64,000 bases of DNA from NCBI RefSeq assembly GCF_022026395.1, contig NZ_CP041767.1, forward strand, positions 1,623,501-1,687,500, written 5' to 3'. Made by a program: the position numbers and the translations under genes. The notes under the pieces were generated by a model. That model was not told the DNA's origin, did not search any database, and saw only the letters and a list, made by a program, of their open reading frames with translations. The DNA is from Brevibacillus brevis. Its GTDB lineage: Bacteria; Bacillota; Bacilli; Brevibacillales; Brevibacillaceae. Of the stretch, positions 11,266 to 40,683 are shown one piece after another; the stretch's first letter is position 1, and every line of letters begins with the position of its first letter.

Positions 11266-11350
11266 GTAAAGGCAATTTGAACAAGTCGTAAAAATAGTGA
11301 AAATAGACGTAAAGATTGTGCAAATCAAGTCTTTCCGCTTCCTAGATAAT
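11266..11350 (+). promoter_or_regulatory. Activator-type promoter 1: 21-bp direct-repeat array plus -10
   Basis: Sites GTAAAA-ATA-GTGAAA (11288) and GTAAAG-ATT-GTGCAA (11309), with a degenerate third copy from 11266 (GTAAAG, second box lost). Repeat spacing is 22 and 21 bp. The -10 GATAAT at 11345-11350 begins 36 bp after the start of the last site, and no -35 hexamer is visible at the expected place. It points at the three-gene amidohydrolase operon and lies in the divergent region with the ABC operon. Confidence 0.75.
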
Positions 11351-11395
11351 GGGGGAGAAAGGAATGGAGAGAGACAAAGAGAGGGTGGATAATGG

Positions 11396-12631
11396 ATGGG
11401 CGTTACCTATTGGTTGACCAATGTTCGTTTGGAGACGGGCTACCGTCGGGAAAACGGTGTCGTCACGGGGACAGAGGCATCCTTGTTTCACATTTTGGTT
11501 AAAGACGGAAAATTCGCGCGCATTGCACCAGCGACAGAGAAGCTTACAGACGATATTTTGCAAAAGGATGCAAAAGGCTTATTGGCACTCCCATCTTTCG
11601 TAGAGAAGCATGTTCATTTGGACAAGACGCTTCAGGGAGAACCATGGCGGGCTGTTATTCCTGTGTCCAATATCATTGAACGCTGTGAAATAGAAAAGCG
11701 CACACTGCCGGGATCGCCGACAACTACACAAGAGCGTGCGGAGAATCTGCTGGAGATCCTCTTGTCCTATGGCTCGACACATGTGCGTACACATGTGGAC
11801 ATTTACCCGGAAGTGGGAATCTCCAATTTGGAATCAGTAAAAGCAGCATTAGCAACCTACACGGATCGAATCACCCACGAGATCGTGGCATTCCCGCAGC
11901 ATGGCTTGTTGCGTACAGACGCAAAAGCACTCTTGCGTGAGGCATTGCGCCAAGGTGCGACTCATGTCGGGGGCGTGGACCCAGCTAATGTGGATGGCGA
12001 TATAGAAGAATCCTTGCACCAAATGATGGAGCTGGCGGTAGAAGCAAACGCAGGTGTGGACTTGCATTTGCATGACCCGGGACATTTGGGAACCTACACA
12101 ATGAAGCGACTGGCAGCAATGACCGTGGATGCTGGCTGGCAAGGCCGCGTAGCAGTCAGCCATGCGTTTGCGCTCGGAGACATCCCAGTGCAAGAAGCAG
12201 AAGAGATGGCGACGATCCTGCGGGAAGCAGGCATTACGATTATCACCAGCGTGCCATTTAGCCGCGTGATCCCACCTGTACAGCTACTGCACCAAAATGG
12301 CGTAGACGTTGCGGTCGGCTGCGACAACATTTTTGACACGTGGCAGCCATACGGAAATGGTGATGTGCTGGAACGCCTCTGGCGACTGGCAGAACGCAAT
12401 CGTTGGCTGGACGAGCTGTCTCTGTCTCAATCTCTGCGTTTTATCACAGGTGGCAAAACGACACTGGCTGCCAACGGAACACAGTTATGGCCTGCACAAG
12501 GGGAAGACGCTAGCCTGATCCTCGTGGATGCGACCTGCTCGGCAGAAGCGATTGCGCGCCGTGCAGATCGACACGCTGTATTCTTCAAGGGCAAGCTTGC
12601 TTCTGGGCAAGTGGAAGAAGTGAACGTTTAA
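11396..12631 (+). CDS. Cytosine-deaminase-like amidohydrolase, paralog 1
   Basis: Metal-dependent hydrolase of the COG0402/CodA group, 411 residues, soluble. Visible active-site residues are H72 and H74 (KHVHLDK), H224 (VDLHLHDPGH), H256 (VSHAFALGD) and D310 (GCDNIFDTW). Their spacing matches E. coli CodA (H61, H63, H214, H246, D313 from memory), but the CodA catalytic glutamate position holds D227, and CodA's HLDTT is HLDK, as in some triazine amidohydrolases. The substrate is therefore probably not cytosine. Start chosen for GAGGGTGGA six bases upstream. First gene of a three-gene operon of paralogs. Confidence 0.88.
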   Translation: MGVTYWLTNVRLETGYRRENGVVTGTEASLFHILVKDGKFARIAPATEKLTDDILQKDAKGLLALPSFVEKHVHLDKTLQGEPWRAVIPVSNIIERCEIEKRTLPGSPTTTQERAENLLEILLSYGSTHVRTHVDIYPEVGISNLESVKAALATYTDRITHEIVAFPQHGLLRTDAKALLREALRQGATHVGGVDPANVDGDIEESLHQMMELAVEANAGVDLHLHDPGHLGTYTMKRLAAMTVDAGWQGRVAVSHAFALGDIPVQEAEEMATILREAGITIITSVPFSRVIPPVQLLHQNGVDVAVGCDNIFDTWQPYGNGDVLERLWRLAERNRWLDELSLSQSLRFITGGKTTLAANGTQLWPAQGEDASLILVDATCSAEAIARRADRHAVFFKGKLASGQVEEVNV

Positions 12632-12647
12632 GAGGGGGGAAAAGCCG

Positions 12648-13871
12648 GTGAAATCTTCTCCTTATTGGATCGTCAACGCTCGACTGGAAATCGGGTATGA
12701 GTGGGAAGAAGGCGTGATCAGTGGAACGCGGACAGAGCTGTGCGATTTGCTTATTGAGCATGGAAAAATCACACGCATTGTCCCTTCCAGTGAAATTTTG
12801 GAGGATGGGCTGCCTAAAAAGGACGCGAAAGGCTTACTGATCTTGCCGTCTATGGCCGAGAAGCACATTCATCTGGAAAAAACGTATTACGGCGGCCCAT
12901 GGAAGGCAACAACTCCCGTAAAAAACTTGTTCGAACGCCACGCTGAGGACAGAGGGCTGTTGCCGATGTATCTCAAGCAGGCACAGACAGGAGCAGAAAA
13001 TATTCTCTCGCTGCTGGTGGAAACAGGAGTGACACATGTAAGAACGCATTGTCATGTGGACCCACAGGTTGGTCTTGGGTTTTTGGAAGGAATGAAAAGT
13101 GCGTTTGAGACGTATGCAGACCGTGTCTCCCACGAAATTGTTGCTTTCCCGCATTATGGGATGCTGCGTACACAAGCACGCGACATGGTACGTGAGGCAC
13201 TGCGTCAAGGCGCCACTCATGTAGGCGGCGTCGATCCGGGTGGAGTCGACGGCGACATCGAGCGTTCCCTGCAAACGATGCTAGAGCTGGCAGTCGAAGC
13301 GGATGCCGATATTGACATGCATTTGCATGATCCGGGGCATCTCGGCGTGTTTACGATGAAGCGCCTCGCTGCTCTGACGGAAGAGGCAGGCTGGCAGGGA
13401 CGTGTCACGATTAGTCACGCGATGGGATTGGGCGATGTTTCACAGGAGGAAGCTAAAGAGATGGCACAACGACTCGCCTCGCTTGGCATTTCTATTGCAT
13501 CGACCGTGCCAATCAATCGCCCGACCATTCCGATTCCGTTGCTGCATCAAGAAGGGGTTGCCGTCATGCTCGGCAACGATAGCCTGACAGACAATTGGAC
13601 ACCCTTTGGCAGCGGAGACTTGTTGGAAAAAGCAGGACGACTGGCTGAACGCTTCCGCTTGACGGATGAAAGATCGTTAGGCGTAGCACTCGGCTTTGTG
13701 ACAGAAGGGCGGATCACTCTCGATGACACCGGGAATCGCCTGTGGCCATTGGCTGGAGATGAGGCGAGCCTGATGGCGGTCGAAGCGACATGTTCAGCAG
13801 AAGCAGTTGCGAGACGTGCGAAGCGCAAGGTCGTGCTTTTCCAAGGCAACCGGGTAGCGGGTGAGTGGTAG
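12648..13871 (+). CDS. Cytosine-deaminase-like amidohydrolase, paralog 2
   Basis: Same family and architecture as the upstream gene, 407 residues, GTG start preceded by GAGGGGGG. The first metal motif is HIHLEK (Glu instead of the usual Asp), followed by MHLHDPGH, ISHAMGLGD and GNDSLTDNW. The catalytic-loop acid is Asp. Similar throughout to paralog 1 (for example REALRQGATHVGGVDP), so a tandem duplication is likely. It lies 16 bp behind paralog 1. Divergence in the substrate-side loop (YYGGPWKATTPVKNL) suggests a changed specificity rather than dosage only. Confidence 0.87.
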   Translation: MKSSPYWIVNARLEIGYEWEEGVISGTRTELCDLLIEHGKITRIVPSSEILEDGLPKKDAKGLLILPSMAEKHIHLEKTYYGGPWKATTPVKNLFERHAEDRGLLPMYLKQAQTGAENILSLLVETGVTHVRTHCHVDPQVGLGFLEGMKSAFETYADRVSHEIVAFPHYGMLRTQARDMVREALRQGATHVGGVDPGGVDGDIERSLQTMLELAVEADADIDMHLHDPGHLGVFTMKRLAALTEEAGWQGRVTISHAMGLGDVSQEEAKEMAQRLASLGISIASTVPINRPTIPIPLLHQEGVAVMLGNDSLTDNWTPFGSGDLLEKAGRLAERFRLTDERSLGVALGFVTEGRITLDDTGNRLWPLAGDEASLMAVEATCSAEAVARRAKRKVVLFQGNRVAGEW

Positions 13872-13905
13872 TACTACTTTTAAATAGAAAGGATGTCATG
13901 GATAG

Positions 13906-15123
13906 ATGTCTACAGCCTATTGGATAACCAACGTCCGCTTGGAGAGCGGATACCGCAAAGAAAATGACAAGGTGGTTGCTACAGATACTGAAGTGGCGCA
14001 TCTATTAATCGAAGACGGACGAATTGCGCAGATCGTGAGTGGAGCCGCTCCACAAACCGAGCTGCCAACGAAGAATGCCAGCGGTCTGTTGGCACTGCCG
14101 TCATTTAGGGATATGCACATCCACATCGATAAAACGTATTATGGCGGCCCTTGGAAAGCCGTGACGCCAGTAAAAAACATCTTGGGTCGACTGGAAGAAG
14201 AGAGCCAGCTCATGCCGAAGCTGCTGCCAACAGCACAAGAGCGCGCAGAAAAAATGCTGGAATTGCTGCTGTCCGCAGGCTCCACCCATATTCGCTCCCA
14301 TTGTAATATCGATCCGTACATCGGACTCAAAAACCTGGAAGCGACGATGGCAGCACTGGAAACCTTCAGCGGCAGATTGCAGTGCGAGGTCGTTGCCTTC
14401 CCGCAGCAAGGTCTTCTGCGAAGTAACCAGGTGGAGAACATCCGCCAAGCCTTGAAGATGGGGGCGACCTACGTTGGCGGTGTAGACCCGGCGACCGTGG
14501 ATCAAAACATCGAGAAATCGCTCGCTACCATTTTTGAGCTGGCAGTGGAAGCGAATGCACCCATCGACGTTCATTTGCATGATCCGGATCATCTCGGGGT
14601 GTTTACATTCAAGCGTCTTGCTAAAATGACCGAAGAAGCAGGGTGGCAAGGTCGCGTTACCATCAGCCATGCCAATTCCCTTGCTGACATCAGTCTGGAA
14701 GAAGCAGGGGAAGTAGCAGAAATGCTCGCTGGCTTGGGCATTTCGATCACTTCCACTGTACCCGTGAACAGAGGGACGATTCCGATTCCATTGCTGCATG
14801 AAAAAGGCGTGTCTGTTTCTCTCGGAGACGACAGTATTACCGATCACTGGTCGCCATTTGGACAAGGAGACAGCTTGGAAAAAGCGGGCCGATTGGCTGA
14901 GCGCTTCCGCATGCAGGACGAACGTTCCCTGTCCCAAGCACTGGGCTTCATTACAGGTGGGAAAACGCCGCTGGATAAAGAGGGCAACCGCCAATGGCCG
15001 AATGTTGGCGACGAAGCGGATATTGTATTCGTTCATGCATCCTCGGCAGCAGAAGCAGTTGCACGCCGCGCGAAGCGCCAAGCTGTAATGTTCCGCGGGA
15101 ATGTCGTTTCTGGGGCTTTGTAA
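13906..15123 (+). CDS. Cytosine-deaminase-like amidohydrolase, paralog 3
   Basis: Third tandem member, 405 residues. Metal and catalytic motifs are HIHIDK, VHLHDPDH, ISHANSLAD and GDDSITDHW. The second-histidine loop ends DPDH rather than DPGH. The start codon ATG at 13906 has an AAAGGA 12 bases upstream, a weak spacing, but no other in-frame start gives the conserved N-terminus (AYWITNVRLESGYR). It ends the operon and a strong terminator follows. The YYGGPWKAVTPVKN loop is shared with paralog 2 and paralog 5, grouping these three apart from paralogs 1 and 4. Confidence 0.87.
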   Translation: MSTAYWITNVRLESGYRKENDKVVATDTEVAHLLIEDGRIAQIVSGAAPQTELPTKNASGLLALPSFRDMHIHIDKTYYGGPWKAVTPVKNILGRLEEESQLMPKLLPTAQERAEKMLELLLSAGSTHIRSHCNIDPYIGLKNLEATMAALETFSGRLQCEVVAFPQQGLLRSNQVENIRQALKMGATYVGGVDPATVDQNIEKSLATIFELAVEANAPIDVHLHDPDHLGVFTFKRLAKMTEEAGWQGRVTISHANSLADISLEEAGEVAEMLAGLGISITSTVPVNRGTIPIPLLHEKGVSVSLGDDSITDHWSPFGQGDSLEKAGRLAERFRMQDERSLSQALGFITGGKTPLDKEGNRQWPNVGDEADIVFVHASSAAEAVARRAKRQAVMFRGNVVSGAL

Positions 15124-15145
15124 GATCGAAAAGAAAATCTATAAC

Positions 15146-15180
15146 AAAAACAGACACGCAATTGTGACGTGTCTGTTTTT
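15146..15180 (+). terminator. Rho-independent terminator
   Basis: Perfect 13-bp stem (AAAAACAGACACG with its complement) with a nine-base loop and T run. It ends the amidohydrolase operon; being A-flanked on the left it may also serve the convergent gene. Confidence 0.85.
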
Positions 15181-15198
15181 GTGTTCATTTGCCTGCAC

Positions 15199-15489
15199 CT
15201 AAAATGCATGGCACCAGCACAAAGGATCATCTCCCCCACAATGTGGGCAACAACCCCCTGTATAGCGAAGTCGAATTTGATCTGAATGCAGCACACCATA
15301 GTCGGTAATCGGTTCGACGCCCGGGATTGGTTCGTCCGGGGTCTCGCGCACTTTCATGTCCGACCACTTTCCGCTCCAGGAACATATACGGCACGTTAAT
15401 CTCTCAGCTGTAGGGTGCAACGCATTCTCGATGACGATCATACATTCTTGACTGTTGGTATTACAGGTAGGACAATCGTGAAGTTTCAT
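15199..15489 (-). CDS. Small cysteine-rich, probable zinc-binding protein
   Basis: A 96-residue protein with four cysteine pairs: CPTC near the N-terminus, CRIC at about 33-36, CCPHC near 80 and CWC close to the end. These could form two zinc ribbons. The family is not recognised. GAGGTGATGAATC precedes the ATG with good spacing. It lies 6 bp downstream of a LysR-type regulator gene in the same orientation and is likely co-transcribed with it. Role unknown. Confidence 0.6.
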   Translation of the reverse strand: MKLHDCPTCNTNSQECMIVIENALHPTAERLTCRICSWSGKWSDMKVRETPDEPIPGVEPITDYGVLHSDQIRLRYTGGCCPHCGGDDPLCWCHAF

Positions 15490-15495
15490 GATTCA

Positions 15496-16383
15496 TCACC
15501 TCTCAAGTTTGCATACATCCTCAAAATAATCGACAACAACCTCACGGAATTCTTGGGCAGCGCGCGAAATGTACCGACTCTTGTGCCATAATAATGCGAT
15601 TTCCCGTACCAATTCGTGATTCTCGACTCTTAGATACGAGATTTGTTCACGAGAATCTCTTGCCGTGCTTGGTATGAAGGCTATGCCGATTTCTGCTTCC
15701 ACCAGTTGGATCAGCCTTGCAGGTTCATCTCCCTCATACACATAGGTGGGTGCGAATCCAACCGACTTGCATATAGTGTCCACGAGATCGCGTGTACCGT
15801 ACCCTTTCTTTACACCGACAAACGATTCATCTTTCAGCTCTGTCAAAGATACGATGCTTCGGTCTGCCAGTCGATGTCCCCTTGGAACAGCTACGAGGAT
15901 AGGGTCAATGAACACGATTTGACATTCGATGTCATCGTCTTGTACAGGAGGGGAGGACAAGCAAAAATCGACCTCTCCTCTATGAAGAAGCGTAACCATT
16001 TCCTGGGTGGTCAGCATTTGTACATGAAATTGGATATCGGGCCGCTTTTTCCGAAACTCGCGAAGGATATTCGGCAGCGTGCTCGCAGTAGTTACGGCTA
16101 ATTCAAGAGTACCATGCTCCGGGTTGGATAGGTCGCGAAGCTCCAGTTTCCCTTGTTCCAATTCAAACAGAGCTCTTTCCACCCGACAGAGGAATTTGCT
16201 TCCGAACTCATTCAGACGCAGCTTTCTCCCTGTACGATCAAATAGCGGGACTCCCAGATCCTCCTCTAATCGTTGAATCGTTTTACTAAGGGACGATTGG
16301 GTCACATGCAGGCTTCGTGCAGCTTCGGTCACATGCTCCATACGAGCAACGGTAAGAAAGTATTGCAGTTGAAGAAGTTCCAT
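15496..16383 (-). CDS. LysR-type transcriptional regulator
   Basis: A 295-residue regulator. The N-terminal winged helix-turn-helix (residues 1-60: LQYFLTVARMEHVTEAARSLHVTQSSLSKTIQRLEEDLG) is typical of LysR, and residues 90-290 form the effector-binding domain (TASTLPNILREFRKKRPDI; GIAFIPSTARD). It is divergent from an MFS transporter gene with 112 bp between them, the classical LysR arrangement, so it probably controls that gene in response to a compound it exports. The start matches family alignments (MELLQLQYF). Confidence 0.92.
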   Translation of the reverse strand: MELLQLQYFLTVARMEHVTEAARSLHVTQSSLSKTIQRLEEDLGVPLFDRTGRKLRLNEFGSKFLCRVERALFELEQGKLELRDLSNPEHGTLELAVTTASTLPNILREFRKKRPDIQFHVQMLTTQEMVTLLHRGEVDFCLSSPPVQDDDIECQIVFIDPILVAVPRGHRLADRSIVSLTELKDESFVGVKKGYGTRDLVDTICKSVGFAPTYVYEGDEPARLIQLVEAEIGIAFIPSTARDSREQISYLRVENHELVREIALLWHKSRYISRAAQEFREVVVDYFEDVCKLER

Positions 16384-16495
16384 TTAGCTCCTCCATTCAT
16401 TCCTTTGAATCAATGGAATCATAACATGAAATACGTTGGAGTAAATGTTTGATTTCCAGTACGATATCATCAAAACGCTTTAAGGAGGGCTGAAA

Positions 16496-20129: not shown

Positions 20130-20131
20130 AG

Positions 20132-25765: not shown

Positions 25766-27007
25766 CTACTTTGTTTCTCCCATTCTCTCCAAAGCACCAT
25801 GCACAATTTTCCCTTTAAACATAACAGCAGCCCGACGAGATTTTCTCGCAATCGCTTCCGCTGAGCAGGAGCTTTCTGCAAACACGATGCTTGCCACGTT
25901 GCCAACCTTCGGCCATGCACGGTTGCCATCTTTATCGAGCGTTGTTTTTCCTCCGGTGATGAAGTACAAGGATTGCACCAATGATTTCTCATCGACCCAA
26001 CGGTAGCGCTCGACCAGACGGTTTAGCTTATCGAGCATATCGCCTGTTCCATAAGGCGACCATGAATCGTAGAACCCATCATAGCCAAGTGCGACATGTA
26101 CGCCTTTGGCATGAAGCATCGGAACAGGTGGCATTGCCCGATTAATCGGAACGGTCGTCAGGATCATCGTTCCCAGCTTGGACAATCGATCGGCCATGTC
26201 CGAGCTTTCTTCCAACGACACATCTCCGAGCGCAAAGGCATGACTGATGGCCATACGGTTCTGCCAGCCTGCTTCCTCGGTCAGATCGAGCAATCTTTTG
26301 ATCGTATAAAAGCCGAGTGTCCCCGGATCATGCAGATGAATATCGACATCCGCGTCTGCTTCCACTGCAATGTCCATCATTTCGCGCAAGGAGCCTTCCA
26401 ACTCATTATCGATCCCAGCCGGGTCCAAGCCCCCAACCAGTGTAGCGCCTTCCTTCATTGCTTGTCTCATCAAGGAGCTTGCTTGTGTGCGCAGGAGTCC
26501 CTGCTGCGGGAAAGCGACGATTTCATACGTCAGGCGATCACTGTACTCTTCCAAGGCTGCACGCACACCCTCCAGGTTTTTCAGGCCAATGTATGGATCG
26601 ATGTTGACGTGTGTGCGTACATGTGTGGCACCGCCTTTGATATGGAGCTGGAGCATCGCTTGTGCGCGCTCTTTGGTCGTCCCTGTCATCAGCGGCATTT
26701 CTTTTGCTTCGAACTCCAAGCGATCAATCAGTTTTTTCGGAGGAAGGCAAGATTTCCAGGTTGCGCCCGCATACGTTTTATCCAGATGATTATGCTTTTC
26801 AACAAAAGAGGGGAGGGCCAATAAACCTTTTGCATCTTCTTGCGGTAAAGTGGTGTCGAGTGGTTCGTTCGCCGATACGATCTCTGCGATTTTGCCGTCT
26901 TCGATCTTCAAATGACAGATTTCCGAGAGTGTGTGAAAGACGCCGTCTTCTCCTGTTTCAAAACCTTTATCGAGACGAACGTTGGTTAACCAAAAAGCTT
27001 GCATCAC
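25766..27007 (-). CDS. Cytosine-deaminase-like amidohydrolase, paralog 4
   Basis: Family member of 413 residues, on the opposite strand and 10 kb from the tandem trio. Motifs are KHNHLDK, DIHLHDPGT, ISHAFALGD and GYDGFYDSW; the catalytic-loop acid is Asp. HNH replaces HVH and DPGT replaces DPGH, making it the most divergent paralog together with paralog 1. The start is ambiguous: GTG at 27007 has AAAGGG ten bases upstream, and the next codon is ATG (27004). Its promoter carries the shared operator array in minus orientation. Single-gene unit. Confidence 0.87.
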   Translation of the reverse strand: MMQAFWLTNVRLDKGFETGEDGVFHTLSEICHLKIEDGKIAEIVSANEPLDTTLPQEDAKGLLALPSFVEKHNHLDKTYAGATWKSCLPPKKLIDRLEFEAKEMPLMTGTTKERAQAMLQLHIKGGATHVRTHVNIDPYIGLKNLEGVRAALEEYSDRLTYEIVAFPQQGLLRTQASSLMRQAMKEGATLVGGLDPAGIDNELEGSLREMMDIAVEADADVDIHLHDPGTLGFYTIKRLLDLTEEAGWQNRMAISHAFALGDVSLEESSDMADRLSKLGTMILTTVPINRAMPPVPMLHAKGVHVALGYDGFYDSWSPYGTGDMLDKLNRLVERYRWVDEKSLVQSLYFITGGKTTLDKDGNRAWPKVGNVASIVFAESSCSAEAIARKSRRAAVMFKGKIVHGALERMGETK

Positions 27008-27170: not shown

Positions 27171-27233
27171 GTAAAGATTGTGCAAATACATGTAAAGGTT
27201 TTGAAACAAATTTTACAGAATATTTCCTATAAT
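27171..27233 (+). promoter_or_regulatory. Activator-type promoter 3
   Basis: GTAAAG-ATT-GTGCAA starts at 27171 and GTAAAG-GTT-TTGAAA at 27192, 21 bp apart. A perfect TATAAT at 27228-27233 begins 36 bp after the second site. No -35 hexamer. It drives the amidohydrolase whose start codon is at 27290. Confidence 0.78.
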
Positions 27234-27289
27234 AACGAAGGATGCAATGGAGTGAAGAAGACGGAACGAGAAAGATAGGGAGGATCGTC

Positions 27290-28759
27290 ATGAAAAAGAA
27301 AATAACCGCAAAATATGTCATCGGTTTTGACGGCGAAGATCATGTGATTATCAAAGATGGGGAAGTCGTTTACGAGAATGACACCATTGTTTATGTGGGG
27401 CACGATTTTGATGGCGAGGTAGATGAAGTGATCGATGCGGGCAATGCTGTAGTCAGCCCGGGCTTCATTGACCTGAATGCGTTGGGTGATATTGATCACG
27501 ATATCGTACATTTGGAGCAAGCTTCTGCTCGAAACAAAAATATGCTTTGGTCAGAAGACTACTACCGCAAAGGCTACCATGAGGTAATGACCCCTGAGGA
27601 AGAGGCATTCAAATCCCTTTACGCCTACAGTCAATTGATTCTTAATGGGGTAACGACAGCGATGCCGATTACATCTGTCTTCTACAAGCGCTGGGCGGAA
27701 ACGTATGAGGAGCTGGCAGCGGCAGCCGATCATGCAGGGCGCTTGGGATTACGTATGTACATGGGGCCGAGCTACCAGTCTGGTATGCGTGTCGTGAAGG
27801 CTAATGGAGAGATTGAAGTACTGTGGAACGAATCGGAAGGACAAGCAGGTCTGGAGCGGGCTGTACAATTTGTCAAAGATTTCGATGGGGCTCATAACGG
27901 ACTCATCCGTGGAATGCTGGCACCAGAGCGAATCGAGACTCAGTCTGTAGAGAACCTGATCAACACAAAGCGTTACAGTGAGGAGCTCGGATGTCCGATT
28001 CGTCTGCATGCTGCGCAAGGTCTCTACGAATATACGGAAATCCATCGTCGTCACAACAAATCACCGATTCAGTTCCTGAATGAGATCGGCTTCCTCGGAA
28101 AGAAAACGGCAATTCCGCACGCACATTTCATTCCAGGCTTTAGTAAGGCGAAATTCGGAGAGGGAGACGATTTGGCGATCCTCCAAGAGACAGGTACGAC
28201 TGTGATTCACTGTCCGCTAGTAGTCGGTCGCCACGGCGAGGCACTCGAATCGTTTGCCCGTTACAAGCGTCGTGGTGTCAACATCGCGATTGGAACTGAT
28301 ACGTTCCCGCCTGACTTCATCCAAAACATTCGCACAGCCAGCATGCTGTCCCGTTTGGTGGAAGGCGATGTCGCGGATTCCAGCTACGCGGATATTTACC
28401 GCGCAGCGACATTGGGCGGAGCACGTTTCCTTGGAAGAGATGATCTGGGACGATTGGCGCCGGGGGCAAAAGCAGATATCATTGCCATCGATCTGGACGG
28501 TTTCCACATGGGGGCGGTTGATGATCCAATCCGCACGATCATCGCGTGTGGCTCGGGGCGTGATGTAAAGCTCTCCATTATTGCTGGACGCACCGTAATG
28601 AAAGACCGTCTCCTGCCAGGAGTTGATCTGGAAGAGATCAAAGCGAAGGGACAGCGTTACTTTGACAAAATGCGTCTGGGTTACGTCGAGCGCGACTATC
28701 AACAGCTGGGCGAAAAAGAGCTGTTCAAGCCTTCTTTTCCAATCGTGAGCAAACCATAG
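27290..28759 (+). CDS. Amidohydrolase-superfamily protein (ATZ/TRZ-like) lacking the HxH metal motif
   Basis: A 489-residue protein with the fold signs of COG0402 amidohydrolases: an N-terminal beta-sandwich strand pair, PGFID at 57-61, RLHAAQ, IPHAHF, GTDTFPPDF and the C-terminal ARFLGRDDLGRLAPGAKADIIAIDL. Where the family normally has HxH after PGF, this protein reads DLNALGDIDHD, so both first metal ligands are replaced (N63 and L65). D67, D69 and H70 nearby might substitute, or the protein may work without the usual metal site. It is more distant from the five cytosine-deaminase-like paralogs than they are from each other but shares their operator type. Start set by GGGAGGA five bases upstream. 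Confidence 0.82.
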   Translation: MKKKITAKYVIGFDGEDHVIIKDGEVVYENDTIVYVGHDFDGEVDEVIDAGNAVVSPGFIDLNALGDIDHDIVHLEQASARNKNMLWSEDYYRKGYHEVMTPEEEAFKSLYAYSQLILNGVTTAMPITSVFYKRWAETYEELAAAADHAGRLGLRMYMGPSYQSGMRVVKANGEIEVLWNESEGQAGLERAVQFVKDFDGAHNGLIRGMLAPERIETQSVENLINTKRYSEELGCPIRLHAAQGLYEYTEIHRRHNKSPIQFLNEIGFLGKKTAIPHAHFIPGFSKAKFGEGDDLAILQETGTTVIHCPLVVGRHGEALESFARYKRRGVNIAIGTDTFPPDFIQNIRTASMLSRLVEGDVADSSYADIYRAATLGGARFLGRDDLGRLAPGAKADIIAIDLDGFHMGAVDDPIRTIIACGSGRDVKLSIIAGRTVMKDRLLPGVDLEEIKAKGQRYFDKMRLGYVERDYQQLGEKELFKPSFPIVSKP

Positions 28760-32560: not shown

Positions 32561-32797
32561 CTGGTGAGAAGAAAAAGCACAGGGCTCGCAGACCTTGACA
32601 ACGCCTACCCAGTCGGAACTTCAAAAAGGAGACAACGCTTGTCGAACACTTCTTCCTCGAGAAACTTCCCCCCGTAGGGTGGCTTTGGCTCGACGGTCCC
32701 TTTTTGAAGTGGAGACGTCCAGTGATTCCCCCTTGCTAGCGTGTCAGTGTCGAAGAGAACTGTGCTTTTTCTTTTCCTCCACTATGGTAGGTAGCTC
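32561..32797 (-). repeat. Element B: nested-stem intergenic repeat
   Basis: Outer stem 32569-32582 with 32760-32773 (14 bp perfect); inner stem 32618-32629 with 32699-32710 (12 bp perfect). Read on the minus strand, the sequence between the outer and inner left arms ends GGGGGAATCACTGGACGTCTCC, which corresponds to the family core. The 32482-32950 stretch holds this element, a terminator upstream and promoter 4 downstream; no gene is seen. Confidence 0.7.
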
Positions 32798-32832
32798 CAA
32801 TAGAGTTATTTTGAACATTCAAAAACGACATA

Positions 32833-32896
32833 GTAAAGAAAATGAAAAGAAAGGTAAAGATAATGAAAAGATTAATAGTAAGAAAATTAGTAATAT
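32833..32896 (+). promoter_or_regulatory. Activator-type promoter 4
   Basis: GTAAAG-AAA-ATGAAA at 32833 and GTAAAG-ATA-ATGAAA at 32854, 21 bp apart. A TAATAT -10 at 32891-32896 begins 37 bp after the second site, one base more than at the other promoters. It precedes binding protein 1. Confidence 0.7.
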
Positions 32897-32950
32897 TTAG
32901 TCATGCCATTTTCTTTTCATTCTATCATCCAGAACAAGGGGGCATTCACA

Positions 32951-34555
32951 GTGAAGAAGAAGCACATGCTAGGATCCATTCTCGCCCTGTCTGTCTTGGT
33001 TTCCACAGTCTTGGCAGGCTGTGGGGGCAGTCAGACATCCAGTGGGACGAATTCCGCGTCCAACTCCAATCAAGCTTCGTCTAGCCCCGCTTCTTCATCG
33101 GCCGCAGCAGGTGGAGGCGGTACCTTGATTATTGCGCGCTTGTCCGATGCGAATAATTTGGACCCGCATTTCAGTACCCAGATTAATTCCATGGCAGTGA
33201 CGCAGCACAAGATCTATGAAGGTCTGGTCATGTTGGATCGGAATAGCGAGTACAAACCTCTTTTGGCAAAGGAATGGAAACAAAAGGATGATGTCACCTG
33301 GGAGTTCACACTGCGTGACGGTGTTACCTTCCACGATGGGGAGCCTTTTCATGCAGAAGCGGTGAAAAAGACGATCGACCGCATTTTGGACAAAGACAAT
33401 CCGACTCCCAAAGCAAACATGTTTGGCATGATTAAAGAGGTGAAGGTCATTGACCCGCTGAAGGTAGAGATTATTTTACATTATCCGTTCGCAGGGCTCT
33501 TGTCCGTACTGGCGAGTGCCGAGGGTGGCATCATTAGTCCAAAGGCGATTAAGGAATTCGGCAAAGAGTTGTCCAAGAAACCAGTTGGGACGGGACCATT
33601 CACCTTTGAATCATGGACGCCTGGACAAGAAATCGTCTTGGTGAAAAACGAGAAGTATTGGGGCAACCAACCGAAACTGGAAAAAGTCGTTTTCAAGACC
33701 ATTCCTGAGGATGCGACACGTGTAGCCATGGTGGAGACAGGTGAAGCTCATGTCGCAGAACAGCTACCGGTCACTGAACTGGAAAGGGTACAGAACTCGC
33801 AGAGCATGTCTTTAGGCCGGTTTGAATCATTCGCGGTTGACCATATCGGGATGAACGTCAAGCAGAAGCCTTTTGACGATGTTCGCGTCCGTCAGGCCAT
33901 TGCCCATGCGATCGATAAGGAAGCGATTATTAAAGGGGTTTATAACAATGTCGGAAAGGTAGCCATTTCGTCATTAGGGCCAAAAGTCATCGGCTACAGC
34001 CCGAATATTAAAACGCCGGAATACGATTTGAACAAAGCGAAGCAATTGCTCACTGAGGCAGGCTACGCCAACGGATTCAAGGCAACCATCTATCTCAATG
34101 ACAACAAGGCACGGATCAATGTGGCAGAAGTGCTGCAATCCCAGCTGAAGGGAATCGGCATCGACTTGCAGATTCAAGTGATGGAGTTCGGCGCGTATCT
34201 GGAATTGGCGGCAAAAGGGGAAGCGCAAATGTTCATTAGTGGCTGGGGCAATGCCACTGGAGATGCAGATTACAACCAGTACAACCTCTTCCACAGCACG
34301 TCAGCAGGTGTGCCAGGCAACCATTCCTTCTACAATAATCCGAAAGTCGATGCGCTGATTGAAGCGGGTCGTAAGGAAAAAGATCCAGAAAAGCGCAAGG
34401 AAATCTACGCAGAGGCGCAGCAAATCGAGATGGAGGAGGTGCCGTTGCTGCCATTCCGCAGCAGTGAAAACCTCGCAGCCATTGCCAAAAATGTACAGGG
34501 TGTGTACATCAGTCCATCTGGGTACATTGACGTGAGCCAAGTCACAATTCAATAG
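32951..34555 (+). CDS. Peptide-type ABC substrate-binding lipoprotein, paralog 1
   Basis: Extracellular lipoprotein of the SBP_bac_5 (DppA/OppA/NikA) family, 534 residues. A lipobox signal peptide (LVSTVLAGC, about residues 15-23) is followed by a Ser/Asn/Ala linker and then the domain, starting LIIARLSDANNLDPHFSTQ and containing LLAKEWKQKDDVTWEFTLRDGV, PVGTGPF and ISGWGNATGDADYNQYN. The GTG start at 32951 has AAGGGGG upstream; the frame opens earlier without a signal sequence. No transport genes adjoin; it likely serves the orphan DppBCDF-like transporter (inference). Ligand unknown. Confidence 0.92.
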   Translation: MKKKHMLGSILALSVLVSTVLAGCGGSQTSSGTNSASNSNQASSSPASSSAAAGGGGTLIIARLSDANNLDPHFSTQINSMAVTQHKIYEGLVMLDRNSEYKPLLAKEWKQKDDVTWEFTLRDGVTFHDGEPFHAEAVKKTIDRILDKDNPTPKANMFGMIKEVKVIDPLKVEIILHYPFAGLLSVLASAEGGIISPKAIKEFGKELSKKPVGTGPFTFESWTPGQEIVLVKNEKYWGNQPKLEKVVFKTIPEDATRVAMVETGEAHVAEQLPVTELERVQNSQSMSLGRFESFAVDHIGMNVKQKPFDDVRVRQAIAHAIDKEAIIKGVYNNVGKVAISSLGPKVIGYSPNIKTPEYDLNKAKQLLTEAGYANGFKATIYLNDNKARINVAEVLQSQLKGIGIDLQIQVMEFGAYLELAAKGEAQMFISGWGNATGDADYNQYNLFHSTSAGVPGNHSFYNNPKVDALIEAGRKEKDPEKRKEIYAEAQQIEMEEVPLLPFRSSENLAAIAKNVQGVYISPSGYIDVSQVTIQ

Positions 34556-34914: not shown

Positions 34915-34970
34915 CTGATGATCTTCTTCAATCTTTAATTGTTTAAAAACCCGTTTAAGCACGGAAAGCT

Positions 34971-35190: not shown

Positions 35191-35234
35191 AACATATACT
35201 CCAAGTCTATTTTTATTGCATGATTCGCATAAAA

Positions 35235-35318
35235 GTAGAAAAAGTGAAAAAAAGAGTAAAGAAAGTGAAAATACAAGTAAAGAGAGTGAAAATACAATGC
35301 CAGAATAGTGGGTAAAAT
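35235..35318 (+). promoter_or_regulatory. Activator-type promoter 5 (three sites)
   Basis: Sites start at 35235 (GTAGAA-AAA-GTGAAA), 35256 (GTAAAG-AAA-GTGAAA) and 35277 (GTAAAG-AGA-GTGAAA), exactly 21 bp apart. TAAAAT at 35313-35318 begins 36 bp after the last. This is the cleanest copy of the array and defines the consensus. Confidence 0.8.
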
Positions 35319-35381
35319 GAAATATGCGCGAATGGTCAAAATATTCAAGTACATCTGGCGCAAAAAGAGGGGGATCACTAC

Positions 35382-36968
35382 ATGAAAAAGACGCGCTTTT
35401 TCCAGACGCTGCTTGCCATGACCGTTGCGGTTTCTACTGCGTTGGCAGGCTGCTCACAAGCACCTGAAGCAGGAGGGAGTACCAATTCTTCGGGGCAAAC
35501 CAATGCTTCATCACCAGCTGGCAAAGAAGGCGGGACACTCGTCATCGCCCGCTTGTCTGATGCGAACAACCTCGACCCACATTTTCTAACGCAAATCAAT
35601 TCCGCCGCCATCATTCATCACAAGGTATACGAGGGTCTTGTTCGGATGGACAAAGAAAGCAAATATGTAGGTTCACTCGCTTCTGAATGGAAGCAGCTCG
35701 ATGATGTGACATGGGAATTCAAGCTTCGCTCTGGTGTGACATTCCACGATGGCACGCCATTCAATGCGGAAGCTGTGAAAAAGACGATTGCACGTGTTCA
35801 AGACCCGGCTGTAGGCTCTAACCGCGCTAATTTGTTTGAAGCCATCAAAGAAGTAAAGGTCGTGGACGATACAACGGTTCAATTCATCCTGCACTATCCA
35901 TACGCACCGCTCCTGTCCGTGCTCGCCAGTGCAGAGGGAGGAATTTTGTCACCAAAAGCGATTGAACAGTATGGAAAAGAATTGACCAAGCATCCAACGG
36001 GAACAGGGCCTTATAAATTCGAATCATGGACACCTGGTCAAGAAGTCGTCCTGGTGAAAAATGATAGCTATTGGGGCGATAAACCGAAGCTGGACAAAGT
36101 CGTCTTCAAGACCGTTCCAGAGGATACGACCAGACTTGCGATGGTCGAGACAGGAGAAGCGAATGTAGCTGAGCAGTTGCCAGTGACAGAAGTCGATCGG
36201 GTGAAAAATTCTCCGAGTATGACACTTGGTCGTTACCCTGCTTTCGCTAGCGATCATATCGGGATTAACAACTCGAAGAAGCCATTCGATGATGTACGCG
36301 TTCGTCAAGCAATTGCACATGCGATTGATAAGAAAACCATCATTCAAGGGGTGTACAACGATGTAGGGACGGTCGCTCATTCCTCCATTACCCCGTCTAT
36401 GGTTGGTTACAGCCCGAATGTAAAAGACTTGCCTTACGATCTGGAAAAATCCAAAAAGTTGTTGGCGGAAGCTGGATACGCGAACGGCTTCAAAGCAACG
36501 ATTTACTTAAATGATAACAAGGCACGAGTAAGCTTGGCAGAGGTGTTGCAGCAACAGCTGAAACAAATCAATATCGATTTGGAAGTGAAAGTGCTAGAGT
36601 TCGGTGCTTATATTGAAGCAGCCAACAAAGGCGAAACGGAATTGTTCCTCAGTGGTTGGGGCAATGCCACAGGCGATGCAGACTACAACCAATACAATCT
36701 GTTCCACACGAAGTCGCAAGGGGCAGCTGGCAACCATGCTTTCTACAGCAATCCGGAAGTGGACAAGCTGATCGATGAGGGCCGCAAAGAGAAAGACGAA
36801 GAAAAACGGAAGCAAATCTACGAAAAAGCACAGCAAATCGAAATGGACGAAGCAGCAATGGTACCGTACCGCTTCTCTGAAAACCTCGCAGCGATTCAAA
36901 AAGGCGTAGAAGGAGTTTGGATCAGCCCAGCAGGACACATTGAGATCGATGCTGTAACTTTGCCATAA
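35382..36968 (+). CDS. Peptide-type ABC substrate-binding lipoprotein, paralog 2
   Basis: SBP_bac_5 lipoprotein, 528 residues. Signal peptide with lipobox VSTALAGC (Cys about residue 23), linker, then LVIARLSDANNLDPHFLTQ, WKQLDDVTWEFKLRSGVTFHDGTPF, HPTGTGPYKFESWTPGQEVVLVKND and FLSGWGNATGDADYNQYN. AGAGGGGGA precedes the ATG. Very similar to paralog 1 through most of its length, so the pair arose by duplication. A hairpin without a T run separates it from paralog 3, which may be co-transcribed. Confidence 0.93.
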   Translation: MKKTRFFQTLLAMTVAVSTALAGCSQAPEAGGSTNSSGQTNASSPAGKEGGTLVIARLSDANNLDPHFLTQINSAAIIHHKVYEGLVRMDKESKYVGSLASEWKQLDDVTWEFKLRSGVTFHDGTPFNAEAVKKTIARVQDPAVGSNRANLFEAIKEVKVVDDTTVQFILHYPYAPLLSVLASAEGGILSPKAIEQYGKELTKHPTGTGPYKFESWTPGQEVVLVKNDSYWGDKPKLDKVVFKTVPEDTTRLAMVETGEANVAEQLPVTEVDRVKNSPSMTLGRYPAFASDHIGINNSKKPFDDVRVRQAIAHAIDKKTIIQGVYNDVGTVAHSSITPSMVGYSPNVKDLPYDLEKSKKLLAEAGYANGFKATIYLNDNKARVSLAEVLQQQLKQINIDLEVKVLEFGAYIEAANKGETELFLSGWGNATGDADYNQYNLFHTKSQGAAGNHAFYSNPEVDKLIDEGRKEKDEEKRKQIYEKAQQIEMDEAAMVPYRFSENLAAIQKGVEGVWISPAGHIEIDAVTLP

Positions 36969-36990
36969 TTTCAGCAAAAAGTGCTTTATG

Positions 36991-37030
36991 ATCAGCATAG
37001 CTTCGCCCATTGGGAACGAGCTATGCTGAT
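36991..37030 (+). other. Perfect intergenic hairpin between binding-protein genes
   Basis: A 12-bp perfect stem (36991-37002 with 37019-37030; ATCAGCATAGCT and AGCTATGCTGAT), further closed by CCC/GGG in the loop. There is no T run, so it is more likely an mRNA-end stabiliser or partial terminator than a full stop. It could set the ratio of paralog 2 to the downstream genes. Confidence 0.65.
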
Positions 37031-37068
37031 TGATTATACAAAGAAAGATTAAAATGGGGGCGTGTCTA

Positions 37069-38640
37069 ATGAAAAAACAGAAGAGGCTAGGTTCAATACT
37101 GGCAGGTATCCTGAGCGTTGGTCTCGTGCTTACAGGCTGTTCATCGGGTACAGAGCAAAGTGCGGCAGGGGCTCCGACTGCGAAGGAAGCTCCGGCAACA
37201 GATCAGACGCTGGTGATTGCACGGCAGTCTGACGCAAACAATCTAGATCCGCACTTTATTTCAGCGATCAATGCAGCGAGTGTGGTCCATCACAAAGTGT
37301 ACGAGGGTCTTGTCCAGCGAGATGATAACATGGCGTTCAAGCCGATGCTAGCCACGGAATGGAAGCAGTTGGACGATGTCACCTGGGAGTTCAAGCTGCG
37401 TCAGGGGGTCAACTTCCACGATGGTACGCCGTTTAACGCCGAAGCGGTGAAAGCAACATTCGCACGCGTCCTCGATGAAAAGGTCGCCTCTCCACGTGCG
37501 TCTCAGTTTAAGATGCTTTCGGAAATAAAAGTAGTGGATGATTACACCGTGCAATTCAAGCTAGCCTACCCGTATTCCCCATTGCTGTCGATCCTCGCCA
37601 ACCACGAAGGAAGCATCATCAGTCCAAAAGCAATAGAGCAATACGGCAAGGACCTGAGCAAACATCCCGTCGGCACAGGGCCGTTCGTATTTGAATCGTG
37701 GACACCTGGCCAAGAGATCGTACTCGTGAAAAATGACAACTACTGGGGAGAGAGGGTGAAATTCAAGAAGGCTGTCTTCAAAGTCGTACCAGAGGACACG
37801 ACGCGCGTAGCCATGGTAGAGACGGGAGAGGCGCACATCGCTGAACCATTGCCGGTGACAGAAATTGACCGCGTCAGTAATTCCCCTCAAATGAGTTTGT
37901 ACCGGACAGAGGGCTTGGGGACAGATTTTATCGGGTTCAATACCAAGAAAAAACCGTTTGACGACATCCGTGTTCGCCAGGCGATCAACTATGCGATTGA
38001 GACTGATGCGATCATCAAAGGTGTGTACAACGATGTAGGAACGAAAGCGAATTCCGCAATGAGTCCGAAGGTTCTTGGATACGATGGGGCGTTAAAAGGA
38101 TACGAGTTTGATCCGAACAAGGCCAAGGCCCTGTTGAAAGAAGCGGGCTATCCGGACGGCTTCAAGACAACCCTGTGGACAGGCGATCGCAAGGAACGGA
38201 TTAATGCTGCGGAAGTAATTCAGTCCCAGTTAAAGGGAATCGGCATTGAAGTAGAGGTGAAAGTACTTGAGTATGGAGCCTATTTGGATGCAGAAGACAA
38301 CGGTGAAACAGAGCTGTTCATCAGCGGATGGGGCAATGCCACTGGAGACGCTGACTATAACCAGTACAATCTGTTCCACTCCAGTTCTTTGGGCAAAGGC
38401 GGTAACACAACGTTCTACGTGAATAAAGAAGTGGACAAGTTCATCGAAGAGGGGCGTCGCGAGCAGGATACGGAAAAACGAAAGCAAATCTATGCAAAGG
38501 CGTTGGAGATTGAAAAGCAAGAAGCACCAATCGTCCCGATCCGCAATCTTGAACATGTCGCTGCAATCAGCAAAAACATCAAAGGCTTCTGGATCAGCCC
38601 TTCAGGGTATATGATGATCAACGGCATTACGATTGAATAG
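37069..38640 (+). CDS. Peptide-type ABC substrate-binding lipoprotein, paralog 3
   Basis: SBP_bac_5 lipoprotein, 523 residues from the ATG at 37069, which has GGGGG eight bases upstream; an upstream in-frame ATG would add a non-signal leader. Lipobox LVLTGC, then LVIARQSDANNLDPHFISA, LRQGVNFHDGTPFNAEAV, HPVGTGPFVFESWTPGQEIVLVKND and FISGWGNATGDADYNQYN. Differences cluster around the predicted ligand cleft (for example TEGLGTDFIGFN versus YPAFASDHIGIN in paralog 2), suggesting another ligand. It is 37 bp upstream of amidohydrolase paralog 5, the only binding-protein/enzyme operon in the window. Confidence 0.93.
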   Translation: MKKQKRLGSILAGILSVGLVLTGCSSGTEQSAAGAPTAKEAPATDQTLVIARQSDANNLDPHFISAINAASVVHHKVYEGLVQRDDNMAFKPMLATEWKQLDDVTWEFKLRQGVNFHDGTPFNAEAVKATFARVLDEKVASPRASQFKMLSEIKVVDDYTVQFKLAYPYSPLLSILANHEGSIISPKAIEQYGKDLSKHPVGTGPFVFESWTPGQEIVLVKNDNYWGERVKFKKAVFKVVPEDTTRVAMVETGEAHIAEPLPVTEIDRVSNSPQMSLYRTEGLGTDFIGFNTKKKPFDDIRVRQAINYAIETDAIIKGVYNDVGTKANSAMSPKVLGYDGALKGYEFDPNKAKALLKEAGYPDGFKTTLWTGDRKERINAAEVIQSQLKGIGIEVEVKVLEYGAYLDAEDNGETELFISGWGNATGDADYNQYNLFHSSSLGKGGNTTFYVNKEVDKFIEEGRREQDTEKRKQIYAKALEIEKQEAPIVPIRNLEHVAAISKNIKGFWISPSGYMMINGITIE

Positions 38641-38677
38641 CGCAAACATTTAGAGAGAAAAGGATGGGAGACGGAGC

Positions 38678-39898
38678 ATGAAAGAAAGCCTATGGATCAA
38701 AAATGCGAGTCTGGAATGTGGTTATTCAGAGACGAATGGCATCGTGACGGGCACAAAGACGGATCTTTTCCACGTCTTGCTCACGGACGGTCGCGTTGAG
38801 AAAATCGTACCTGCTTTGTCAGATATACCTGATGGGGTTTCTGTGTGGGATGCACAAGGCCTACTGATGCTGCCTTCTTTCCGGGAAATGCACATTCATT
38901 TGGACAAAACATTTTATGGAGGTCCGTGGCAAGCTGTTCTTCCTGCTCCCAATCGTTTTTTTCGAATCGAGCAAGAGCAGGAACTGTTGCCTCACCAACT
39001 TCCCGTCGCCCGTGAGCGTGCAGAAAAGCTGTTGGAGTTAGTGCAATCGCACGGCGCTACTCACGTGCGGACGCATTGCAACATTGACCCGGTCATTGGG
39101 TTGAAAAATCTGGAAGCCACATTGGAAGCATTGGCAACTTACCGTGAAAAACTTTCCTGGGAAATTGTCGCGTTTCCCCAACATGGCTTGTTGCGCAGTG
39201 ATTCTGTTTCCCTCGTTCGTGAGGCAATGAAGCATGGAGCTGGCCTCGTAGGTGGTGTCGATCCTGCCACATTTGACGATGATATCGAGAAATCACTTGA
39301 TACGATGATGGACATAGCGGTGGAAGCGAATGCGGATGTGGACATTCACTTGCACGAGCCTGGTCATTTGGGCGTTTATATTATGAAAAAATTGGCTGTG
39401 ATGACAAAGGATGCGGGTTGGCAAGGTCGAGTCACTGTCAGCCATGCTTACGGGCTAGGAGAGGTACCGACTGCTGTGGCAGAAGAGGTCGCGGAGCTTT
39501 TCGCCGAGCAGCAAATCGTTATCATGTCGGCTGTTCCTATTGATATGCCGACCATCCCGATTCCGTTGCTTCATGCCAAAGGCGTCCATGTTGGTTTGGG
39601 CAATGACAACATTACTGATCATTGGGACCCATTTGGAACCGGAGATATGCTGCAAAAAGCAAACCGTCTGGCTGAACGGTTTCGTTGGATCGATGAGCGA
39701 TCTCTATCGCGTGCGCTGGGATTCGTTACAGGTGGCGTGACTCCACTGGATCAAGCTGGCAATCAGGTTTGGCCGAAAGTCGGAGATGAGGCAAATGCGG
39801 TTTTCGTCTGTGCCAAATGCTCCGCCGAGGCTGTGGCTAGACAATCTCCGAAGGAAGCGGTGGTTTTCTCGGGCAAGATGGTTTGGCAGAAACAATAA
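38678..39898 (+). CDS. Cytosine-deaminase-like amidohydrolase, paralog 5
   Basis: A 406-residue family member. Motifs are MHIHLDK, DIHLHEPGH, VSHAYGLGE and GNDNITDHW. It is the only paralog with Glu in the catalytic loop (HLHEPGH), the residue found at the equivalent place in CodA; the other four have Asp. The FYGGPWQAVLPAPN loop groups it with paralogs 2 and 3. AAAGGATGGGAG precedes the ATG. The operon with a binding protein suggests that it acts on the imported compound. Confidence 0.88.
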   Translation: MKESLWIKNASLECGYSETNGIVTGTKTDLFHVLLTDGRVEKIVPALSDIPDGVSVWDAQGLLMLPSFREMHIHLDKTFYGGPWQAVLPAPNRFFRIEQEQELLPHQLPVARERAEKLLELVQSHGATHVRTHCNIDPVIGLKNLEATLEALATYREKLSWEIVAFPQHGLLRSDSVSLVREAMKHGAGLVGGVDPATFDDDIEKSLDTMMDIAVEANADVDIHLHEPGHLGVYIMKKLAVMTKDAGWQGRVTVSHAYGLGEVPTAVAEEVAELFAEQQIVIMSAVPIDMPTIPIPLLHAKGVHVGLGNDNITDHWDPFGTGDMLQKANRLAERFRWIDERSLSRALGFVTGGVTPLDQAGNQVWPKVGDEANAVFVCAKCSAEAVARQSPKEAVVFSGKMVWQKQ

Positions 39899-39913
39899 AG
39901 AGTAGGAAATACG

Positions 39914-39946
39914 ATCCGATCTTCTTAAGAAGGTCGGATTTTTTTG
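39914..39946 (+). terminator. Rho-independent terminator
   Basis: Stem ATCCGATCTTCTT with AAGAAGGTCGGAT (one G-T pair) and a seven-T run after amidohydrolase paralog 5. Confidence 0.88.
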
Positions 39947-39964
39947 TTTGTTTAAAAGTGTCTG

Positions 39965-40180
39965 TAGTGGGGAAGAAGTGCATTTCCAGTCTACGCTTCG
40001 GCCTCCGCCCCGCAAGGGGGATTGACTGTCCGCTTCGGAATAAATGGCGGGAGCGCTTCAAACGTAGACAGTTTCGAAGAAGTATCTCATGAATGAAGCT
40101 GAAATTCCCCGCCATTTATTCCTACGCTGAGATGGGCTCCAGAGGCGCTTGGACTGGAAATGCACTTCTTCCGGCGTAGC
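39965..40180 (+). repeat. Element E: nested-stem intergenic repeat
   Basis: The best-formed copy. Outer stem 39971-39991 with 40152-40172 is a 21-bp perfect match; inner stem 40037-40051 with 40108-40122 is 15 bp perfect. Between them lies a small hairpin with a GCAA loop (CCCCGCAAGGGG, near 40009) and the core GGGGGATTGACTGTCCGCTT. Plus orientation, facing element F. The 841-bp gap 39899-40739 holds a terminator, elements E and F, and promoter 6, and no gene. Confidence 0.8.
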
Positions 40181-40354
40181 TTTTGTAAGTATTTCGAAAG
40201 CCGTCTCAAGATGAGAAAAGATTGCTTCGTGACCATACTGACTTTCATTTCAAATCTATTCATTGGAACATATCAGCCAAGTACAACGATGAAATACCTT
40301 CTAAAATTTTCCATTATCATCTTTCAAACAGATCGAAAAATAGACAAAAGCAAC

Positions 40355-40572
40355 GTCAAAGAAGCGTGTTTCCAATCATAGCGCCTTTGGAGCCCGACCG
40401 AGCGGAGGTATGAATGACGGGAGCGTTTTTAGCTTCAACGTGCGAATACGTCATCGAGGCTACCCCTTTTGAAGCGGCTCCTGTCATTCATTCCGGAGCG
40501 GACAGTCTTCACGCCTTGCGTGGCGTAGGCCGAAGCGAAGACTGGAAACACGCTTCTCCACCGAAGCTACGG
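40355..40572 (-). repeat. Element F: nested-stem intergenic repeat
   Basis: Outer stem 40360-40374 with 40543-40557 (15 bp perfect); inner stem 40412-40424 with 40477-40489 (one G-T pair). On the minus strand the copy reads TTTCCAGTCTTCGCTTCGGCC and then core GAAGACTGTCCGCTCCGGA, very close to element E. Inverted relative to E and 49 bp upstream of the promoter 6 array. Confidence 0.78.
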
Positions 40573-40620
40573 TATCAAGTGTATTTTCGTACTTTTTCAT
40601 CTGCGTGAAATTAAATAAAA

Positions 40621-40683
40621 GTAAAAATATTATAAATTGATGTAAAGATGCTGAAAGGTTCGTTTGAAAATCTACCGTATAAT
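40621..40683 (+). promoter_or_regulatory. Activator-type promoter 6
   Basis: GTAAAG-ATG-CTGAAA at 40642 is preceded 21 bp earlier by a weaker GTAAAA-ATA-TTATAA at 40621. A perfect TATAAT at 40678-40683 begins 36 bp after the proximal site. No -35 hexamer. It precedes binding protein 4. Confidence 0.72.

Follow-up and report, generated by a model that had tools for sequence, protein, structure and literature searches.

AraC is an arabinose sensor that acts with DNA looping, and regulators in which an AraC-type DNA-binding domain is joined to a receiver (YesN-type) are common in Bacillota. At araBAD of Escherichia coli K-12 (NC_000913.3) the direct repeats I1 and I2 were measured to lie 21 base pairs (bp) apart, with the proximal repeat near the -35 region and the -10 box starting at +37 from the start of I2. 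A similar arrangement of two direct repeats is found in the 64,000-nucleotide stretch of Brevibacillus brevis DNA analysed here (the window; contig NZ_CP041767.1, positions 1,623,501 to 1,687,500), where tandem two-box sites stand before six promoters (P1 to P6) and a YesN-type response regulator is encoded at 5756-6460. Unlike AraC, the regulator here carries a receiver on its DNA-binding domain; the boxes have other sequences, and the -10 box lies as a rule at +36. We consider it very probable that the sites are operators of this regulator, which would activate transcription beside RNA polymerase with an AraC-like geometry.

Tandem sites at a 21-bp step have already been predicted for AraC-type two-component regulators. 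The accessible text of PMC8579813 describes predicted direct-repeat sites, sought at a 21- or 32-bp periodicity, for three of five such regulators of Caldicellulosiruptor bescii, lying upstream of mapped promoter elements, with the regulators taken as activators and encoded beside ABC transporters as here; those transporters, however, are for sugar oligomers. XydS/XydR of Clostridium cellulolyticum also combines a receiver with an AraC-type domain and has direct repeats upstream of its targets, but XydR has 532 amino acids, against 234 here, and its targets are hemicellulases; no consensus site for it was found in the available part of PMC3572039. The pneumococcal YesNM and TCS07 are likewise two-component systems labelled YesNM/YesMN, and according to the portion of PMC11034029 available YesN shows no clear repeat, with a conserved AATTC and possible direct-repeat parts, and RR07 has a candidate CTWWWWWWAG; neither motif resembles GTAAAG-N4-TGMAA. 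Among the open-access papers listed, none describes this operator or this module, and none naming Brevibacillus with this regulator type deals with this system. The present system is an unusually well-defined further case, in which a regulator, an operator, a spacing rule and eight promoters are tied together in one genome and can be traced over several genera, and with it both DNA recognition by the YesN-type class and signalling to a kinase without a recognisable sensor domain become testable on a few short fragments.

Read directly from the sequence, the half-site is a 15-mer, GTAAAG-N4-TGMAA, whose second box begins 10 bp past the start of the first. Half-sites stand in tandem with a 21-bp step at all six promoters of the window, and the -10 box starts 36 bp after the start of the last site, or 37 bp in one case (Table 1). 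A scan of both strands of the 64-kb window with the consensus GTAAAGNNNGTGAAA, allowing up to 2 mismatches, gave 20 matches, of which 12 are sites marked in an earlier, sequence-only reading of this DNA (both half-sites of P1 to P4, all three of P5 and the proximal one, at 40642, of P6) and the other 8 are isolated singles elsewhere in the window. That reading had listed six two-box tandem sites followed by -10 boxes at +36 in five cases and +37 in the sixth, and both the positions and the phasing were borne out; the single 22-bp spacing that it reported is that of a degenerate third site of P1, at 11266, 22 bp upstream of the next and matching only with one added base. Its observation that a -35 hexamer is missing also stood. 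The best match to TTGACA 16-18 bp upstream of the -10 box has 3-5 mismatches at 8/8 promoters of this genome (two lie outside the window, as described below) and at least 3 mismatches in 90/90 related promoters with a phased -10 box. The arrangement shows the features of AraC class-II promoters, namely direct-repeat two-box half-sites two helical turns apart, a proximal half-site near the -35 region and a fixed distance to the -10 box, and the resemblance to I1/I2 that had been proposed holds on the fetched E. coli DNA. Boxes stepped by 10 bp, sites stepped by 21 bp and a -10 box at a fixed distance with no proper -35 together suggest a pair of AraC-type domains on one face of the DNA, the inner of which would touch RNA polymerase.

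Table 1. Promoter sites, genes and other elements discussed in the text (window positions unless a locus is named).
Feature	Position	Strand	Details
Operator P1	11266-11323	+	half-sites 11288-11302 and 11309-11323; -10 GATAAT 11345-11350; upstream of three amidohydrolase genes from 11396
Operator P2	27100-27135	-	half-sites 27135-27121 and 27114-27100; -10 TACAAT 27078-27073; upstream of amidohydrolase 25766-27007
Operator P3	27171-27206	+	half-sites 27171-27185 and 27192-27206; -10 TATAAT 27228-27233; upstream of amidohydrolase 27242-28759
Operator P4	32833-32868	+	half-sites 32833-32847 and 32854-32868; -10 TAATAT 32891-32896, at +37; upstream of SBP_bac_5 gene
Operator P5	35235-35291	+	three half-sites 35235, 35256, 35277 in 21-bp register; -10 TAAAAT 35313-35318; upstream of SBP_bac_5 gene 35382
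Operator P6	40621-40656	+	half-sites 40621-40635 (weak) and 40642-40656; -10 TATAAT 40678-40683; upstream of SBP_bac_5 gene 40740
Response regulator	5756-6460	-	receiver (Asp53) and AraC-type helix-turn-helix; 234 amino acids; proposed activator of P1-P6
Histidine kinase	6465-7253	-	262 amino acids; His_kinase 8e-22, HATPase_c 3.4e-07; N-terminal hydrophobic stretch
Opp/Dpp-type ABC transporter genes	7349-11215	-	two ATPases, two permeases; upstream of kinase and regulator, same strand
SSF-family symporter-like gene	4431-5759	-	TTG start at 5759, 4-bp overlap with regulator stop; in place in 76/80 loci
Three tandem AtzC/cytosine-deaminase-like amidohydrolases	11396-15123	+	NCBIfam PRK06846
Amidohydrolase	25766-27007	-	PRK06846 family
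Amidohydrolase	27242-28759	+	PRK06151 chlorohydrolase family; 505 residues
Family-5 substrate-binding protein	32903-34555	+	SBP_bac_5; likely start GTG near 32954
Two family-5 substrate-binding proteins and one PRK06846 amidohydrolase	35382-39898	+	
Family-5 substrate-binding protein	40740-42314	+	SBP_bac_5
CodY-like palindrome	27210-27224	+	3 mismatches to AATTTTCWGAAAATT; between P3 and its -10
CodY-like palindrome	32874-32888	+	3 mismatches to AATTTTCWGAAAATT; between P4 and its -10
G001 relic	L090, around 616-1536	-	

Searching the 6,156,479-bp genome for the 36-bp pair, with 3 mismatches allowed, gave 9 occurrences; the reversed pattern gave one. Seven of the pairs lie in the window (the P5 triplet counting twice), one about 1.2 kb to its left and one 1.2 Mb away. 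By the accepted gene calls all nine are intergenic and each faces a downstream gene, two mechanically called open reading frames that overlap pairs (32595-32900 and, on the minus strand, L006 1429-2106) being taken as spurious. The nearer outside pair, C1:1622258, is followed by TATAAT at exactly +36 and lies upstream of an SBP_bac_1 gene whose presumed permease genes open the window, and the distant one, C1:2839528, is followed by TAAAAT, again at exactly +36, and precedes a further SBP_bac_5 gene; the two are informative because neither was used in setting the +36 rule. The earlier proposals that the phasing goes beyond chance and defines a regulon are strengthened accordingly, and a motif that was equally frequent and unphased in coding sequence, which had been named as the refuting outcome, did not appear in the genome pattern scan. 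The notion of an operator shared by six promoters was upheld, whereas the description of the genes as dispersed was not, as seven of the eight promoters lie within about 42 kb and mostly form a cluster. A search of this genome for further targets, using a single proximal site with a -10 box at +36, gave 59 matches when 3 mismatches were allowed, the reversed pattern giving 38; with 2 allowed there were 12 matches, 7 of them known promoters and 5 others (the +37 promoter cannot appear there). We take the regulon to consist of eight promoters.

Conservation was followed in 80 loci (1.59 Mb) fetched with the regulator as query, these being the best 80 among 129 relatives. With 2 mismatches allowed, 65 pairs had the 21-bp spacing, and no other spacing between 16 and 33 bp had more than 2 pairs; with 3 allowed, there were 93 pairs at 21 bp in 60 of the loci, against none for the reversed pattern and a mean of 0.5 (highest 13) for 40 shuffled patterns. 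A -10 box within 1 mismatch of TATAAT stands at +35 to +37 in 91 of the 93 pairs. One pair fell at a locus end, leaving 92 for the analysis of downstream genes, 90 of which entered the -35 comparison given above, and in about 85 of the 92, ties being shared, the best TATAAT match is at +35 to +37. Matched to the window proteins, the first downstream genes encode SBP_bac_5 proteins in 45/92 cases, Amidohydro_3 in 20/92, an SBP_bac_1 protein in 6/92 and, weakly, Amidohydro_1 in 1/92; the remaining 20 were unmatched, many where the locus ended. In 19 of the 92 the gene behind the pair is related to that at 11396. These promoters comprise 56 distinct 36-mers, so that the loci are non-independent. 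Relatives of the regulator adjoin the same operator in Brevibacillus, Paenibacillus, Gottfriedia and Peribacillus, with the pair about 5 kb away. A relaxed scan (6 mismatches, with an exact TATAAT at +35 to +37) yielded 134 pairs in 72/80 loci, with 0-2 at other -10 offsets, and was not counted because neighbouring spacings also score (20 bp: 81; 19 bp: 41; 22 bp: 38).

The protein nominated as regulator in the sequence-only reading matches Response_reg (2.5e-20), HTH_AraC (1.7e-24) and HTH_18 (1.6e-22) in Pfam, which is the YesN-type domain make-up, and its relatives of solved structure include the DNA-binding domain of AraC itself; the presence of this protein also tracks the operator set across 26 Brevibacillus genomes. 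In this sample, in which the reversed pattern served as control, the regulator is present at 90-100% identity in 15 genomes, which have 5-11 pairs each. The 11 genomes without it hold 5 pairs in total (none in seven, one in each of three and two in G001), a number no greater than that of the reversed pattern, which gave 18 matches over the 26 genomes. A pair, the counterpart of P3, stands upstream of 14/14 orthologues of the 27242 amidohydrolase within the genus, counting those with 384 or more of its 505 residues covered, 12 having been seen directly and those of G005 and G023 by position, their loci being stored on the other strand. In G001, where no regulator match was found at E 1e-40, a shortened copy of this amidohydrolase (residues 2-277 of 505) lies behind a one-mismatch operator, an arrangement that a lost regulator would be expected to leave. 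With 2 mismatches allowed and 8 regulator candidates scored per genome, clustered pairs occurred among 348 Bacilli genomes only in the nine whose regulator is at least 96% identical, with 6-8 pairs each.

Some side observations belong with this comparison. The second pair of G001 (L108 1501-1536) is a weak look-alike upstream of a different amidohydrolase, with a similar sequence at G007:C1:2785595, and could be another regulator's site. The G009 orthologue of the 27242 gene covers residues 118-501 only, and the matches to 27242-28759 in G020, G021 and G024 each contain two in-frame stops. In L040 (Brevibacillus centrosporus; 10001-10501) and in G009 (G009:C55:184278-184781) the match to the regulator breaks off near residue 168 and so does not reach the second helix-turn-helix; G009 carries six operator pairs despite this shortening. 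The second helix-turn-helix, GF-N/S-SQ-H/N-YF, is kept in all 80 aligned regulators except that of L040, which ends earlier. GF..YF being a general AraC-family signature, this conservation among the aligned relatives lends weak support to the operator assignment.

If the sites are indeed operators of the 5756-6460 regulator, two and sometimes three phosphorylated copies would bind the 15-bp sites head-to-tail, the two AraC-type helix-turn-helix motifs of each copy entering the GTAAAG box and the TGMAA box, which are separated by one helical turn. With a repeat of 21 bp the copies would stay on the same face of the DNA, and the proximal copy, overlapping the -35 region, would recruit RNA polymerase to promoters that have a -10 box and no usable -35. 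The genes switched on in this way would be several substrate-binding proteins and amidohydrolases serving a single Opp-type transporter whose genes accompany that of the regulator. Such regulators abound, with 120 first-look candidates in this genome, and one target is 1.2 Mb distant, so an attribution of the operators to some other AraC-family or YesN-type regulator, to which 5756-6460 is merely adjacent, has to be considered. It is unlikely, given that among 110 scored candidates only the 5756-6460 protein matches at E 1e-40 or better, that the pair accompanies regulator relatives in the four genera named above and that clustered pairs are missing in the 11 congeners without the regulator; the other regulators among the scanned open reading frames of the window, which are part of all its frames, are of LysR, GntR/FadR and GntR-aminotransferase types.

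The repeats might instead be a promoter module that was duplicated along with the genes and is read by no dedicated regulator, since paralogy among the targets (five PRK06846 amidohydrolases, several SBP_bac_5) means that common upstream DNA could be inherited. Yet the constraint falls mainly on the boxes, the 21-bp step and the -10 box, while promoters vary in the 6-bp linker and in the sequence between operator and -10 box, and both the variety of 36-mers and the occurrence of the layout before Amidohydro_3, Amidohydro_1, SBP_bac_5 and SBP_bac_1 genes make simple duplication a very improbable account. That an AT-rich promoter composition should produce the pattern by chance carries next to no probability: the sites are A-rich and at 6 mismatches spacings of 19, 20 and 22 bp score too, but strict pairs are nearly confined to 21 bp and the reversed pattern is absent from the 1.59 Mb, by which chance is refuted at the strict threshold. 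Several observations nevertheless weigh against assigning the operators to the 5756-6460 regulator. A pair at up to 3 mismatches is missing from 20/80 loci; at up to 2 mismatches clustered pairs are absent from the 15 of the 348 Bacilli genomes whose best regulator match is 46-67% identical (two of the 15 have one chance-like match each), and the co-occurrence lies within one genus and may follow one clade. The absence of pairs beside distant regulators indicates that the Brevibacillus operator is specific, and that either the operator drifts or the distant regulators differ. The target at C1:1622258 is an SBP_bac_1 (sugar-type) operon, a poor fit to a peptide-like substrate, and among the half-site matches of the window and the pair matches of the genome none faces the operon of transporter, kinase and regulator itself.

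The targets in the window, where annotation covered chosen open reading frames, comprise three SBP_bac_5 proteins directly and a fourth probably by read-through, five PRK06846 amidohydrolases and one of PRK06151; outside it there are one SBP_bac_5 gene and one SBP_bac_1 operon. To judge from the short gaps, P5 probably serves the genes at 37030 and 38678 too. A D-aminoacylase identity was considered for the amidohydrolases and dropped, as they fit PRK06846 and, in a structure search made with the third gene of the 11396-15123 trio, the nearest structures were those of AtzC and cytosine deaminase. Substrates may be small amides or nitrogen heterocycles, to judge from the occurrence of amidohydrolases together with peptide-type transport.

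A second element lies between the operator and the -10 box at many related promoters, where a palindrome is found that is similar to the CodY box, for which the consensus AATTTTCWGAAAATT is given in the accessible part of PMC5314169. In this genome only P3 and P4, out of eight promoters, come within 3 mismatches of it, and CodY control is therefore no more than a sequence-based lead. GAAWATT stands between operator and -10 box in 40 of 61 non-redundant related promoters, with C two bases before it in 39/40 and A or T one base before it in 40/40. The left arm of the palindrome agrees on average with the CodY consensus at 4.9 of its 7 positions, where shuffles reach 2.5, the rows being interrelated and yielding no clean probability. 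Sorted by downstream gene, the element (up to 3 mismatches) precedes 13/21 relatives of 37030 and 14/15 of the unassigned group, and was not found before relatives of 11396 (0/11) or 40740 (0/5). A CodY-family gene is present in this genome, and in one genome there are two CodY-family matches above the cut-off (G000:C1:3647074-3647601 and C1:4234992-4235519).

The regulator belongs to a conserved module. A LytS/YesM-class kinase homologue lies directly upstream of it on the same strand in 76/80 loci, and both permease genes, an ATPase gene, the kinase and the SSF gene are at their expected places around it in 74/80, a count that does not tell the two ATPase genes apart. A longer overlap of the SSF gene with the regulator, from a mechanically called frame starting at 5879, was rejected, since a start with a 4-bp overlap exists and L010 and L088 have breaks in the longer frame. 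The kinase has its phospho-acceptor motif, PHFLFN, near residue 65. An extracytoplasmic sensor domain is the defining feature of YesM-type kinases, and the Pfam scan of this one gave only His_kinase and HATPase_c and no sensor domain. In the 76 loci in which the kinase frame was found its median length is 255 amino acids (196-291), from which alone the absence of a sensor was judged there, and crude hydropathy gave one N-terminal segment in 42, two in 33 and none in one. As the kinase has no recognisable sensor domain and the module is kept in 74/80 loci, a transporter may act as its sensor. An SSF/SLC5 protein is also linked to a histidine kinase in the SLC5/STAC kinases CbrA, CrbS and RpuS, as far as the sources available describe them, but there the two are fused in one protein, whereas here they are encoded by separate genes and contact between them is speculation. 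A tentative and rather doubtful picture of the module (Opp permeases and ATPases, kinase, regulator and SSF protein) would have the kinase informed either by an Opp permease served by rival binding proteins or by the SSF protein, as a split SLC5-kinase, with the regulator switching on alternative binding proteins through strict AraC-like operators and CodY imposing a veto at some promoters through the palindrome between operator and -10 box. The regulator fetched in L047 and L083 may be a second, stand-alone copy, since the matches to the kinase, the ATPase and the SSF protein are found 6-10 kb upstream of it.

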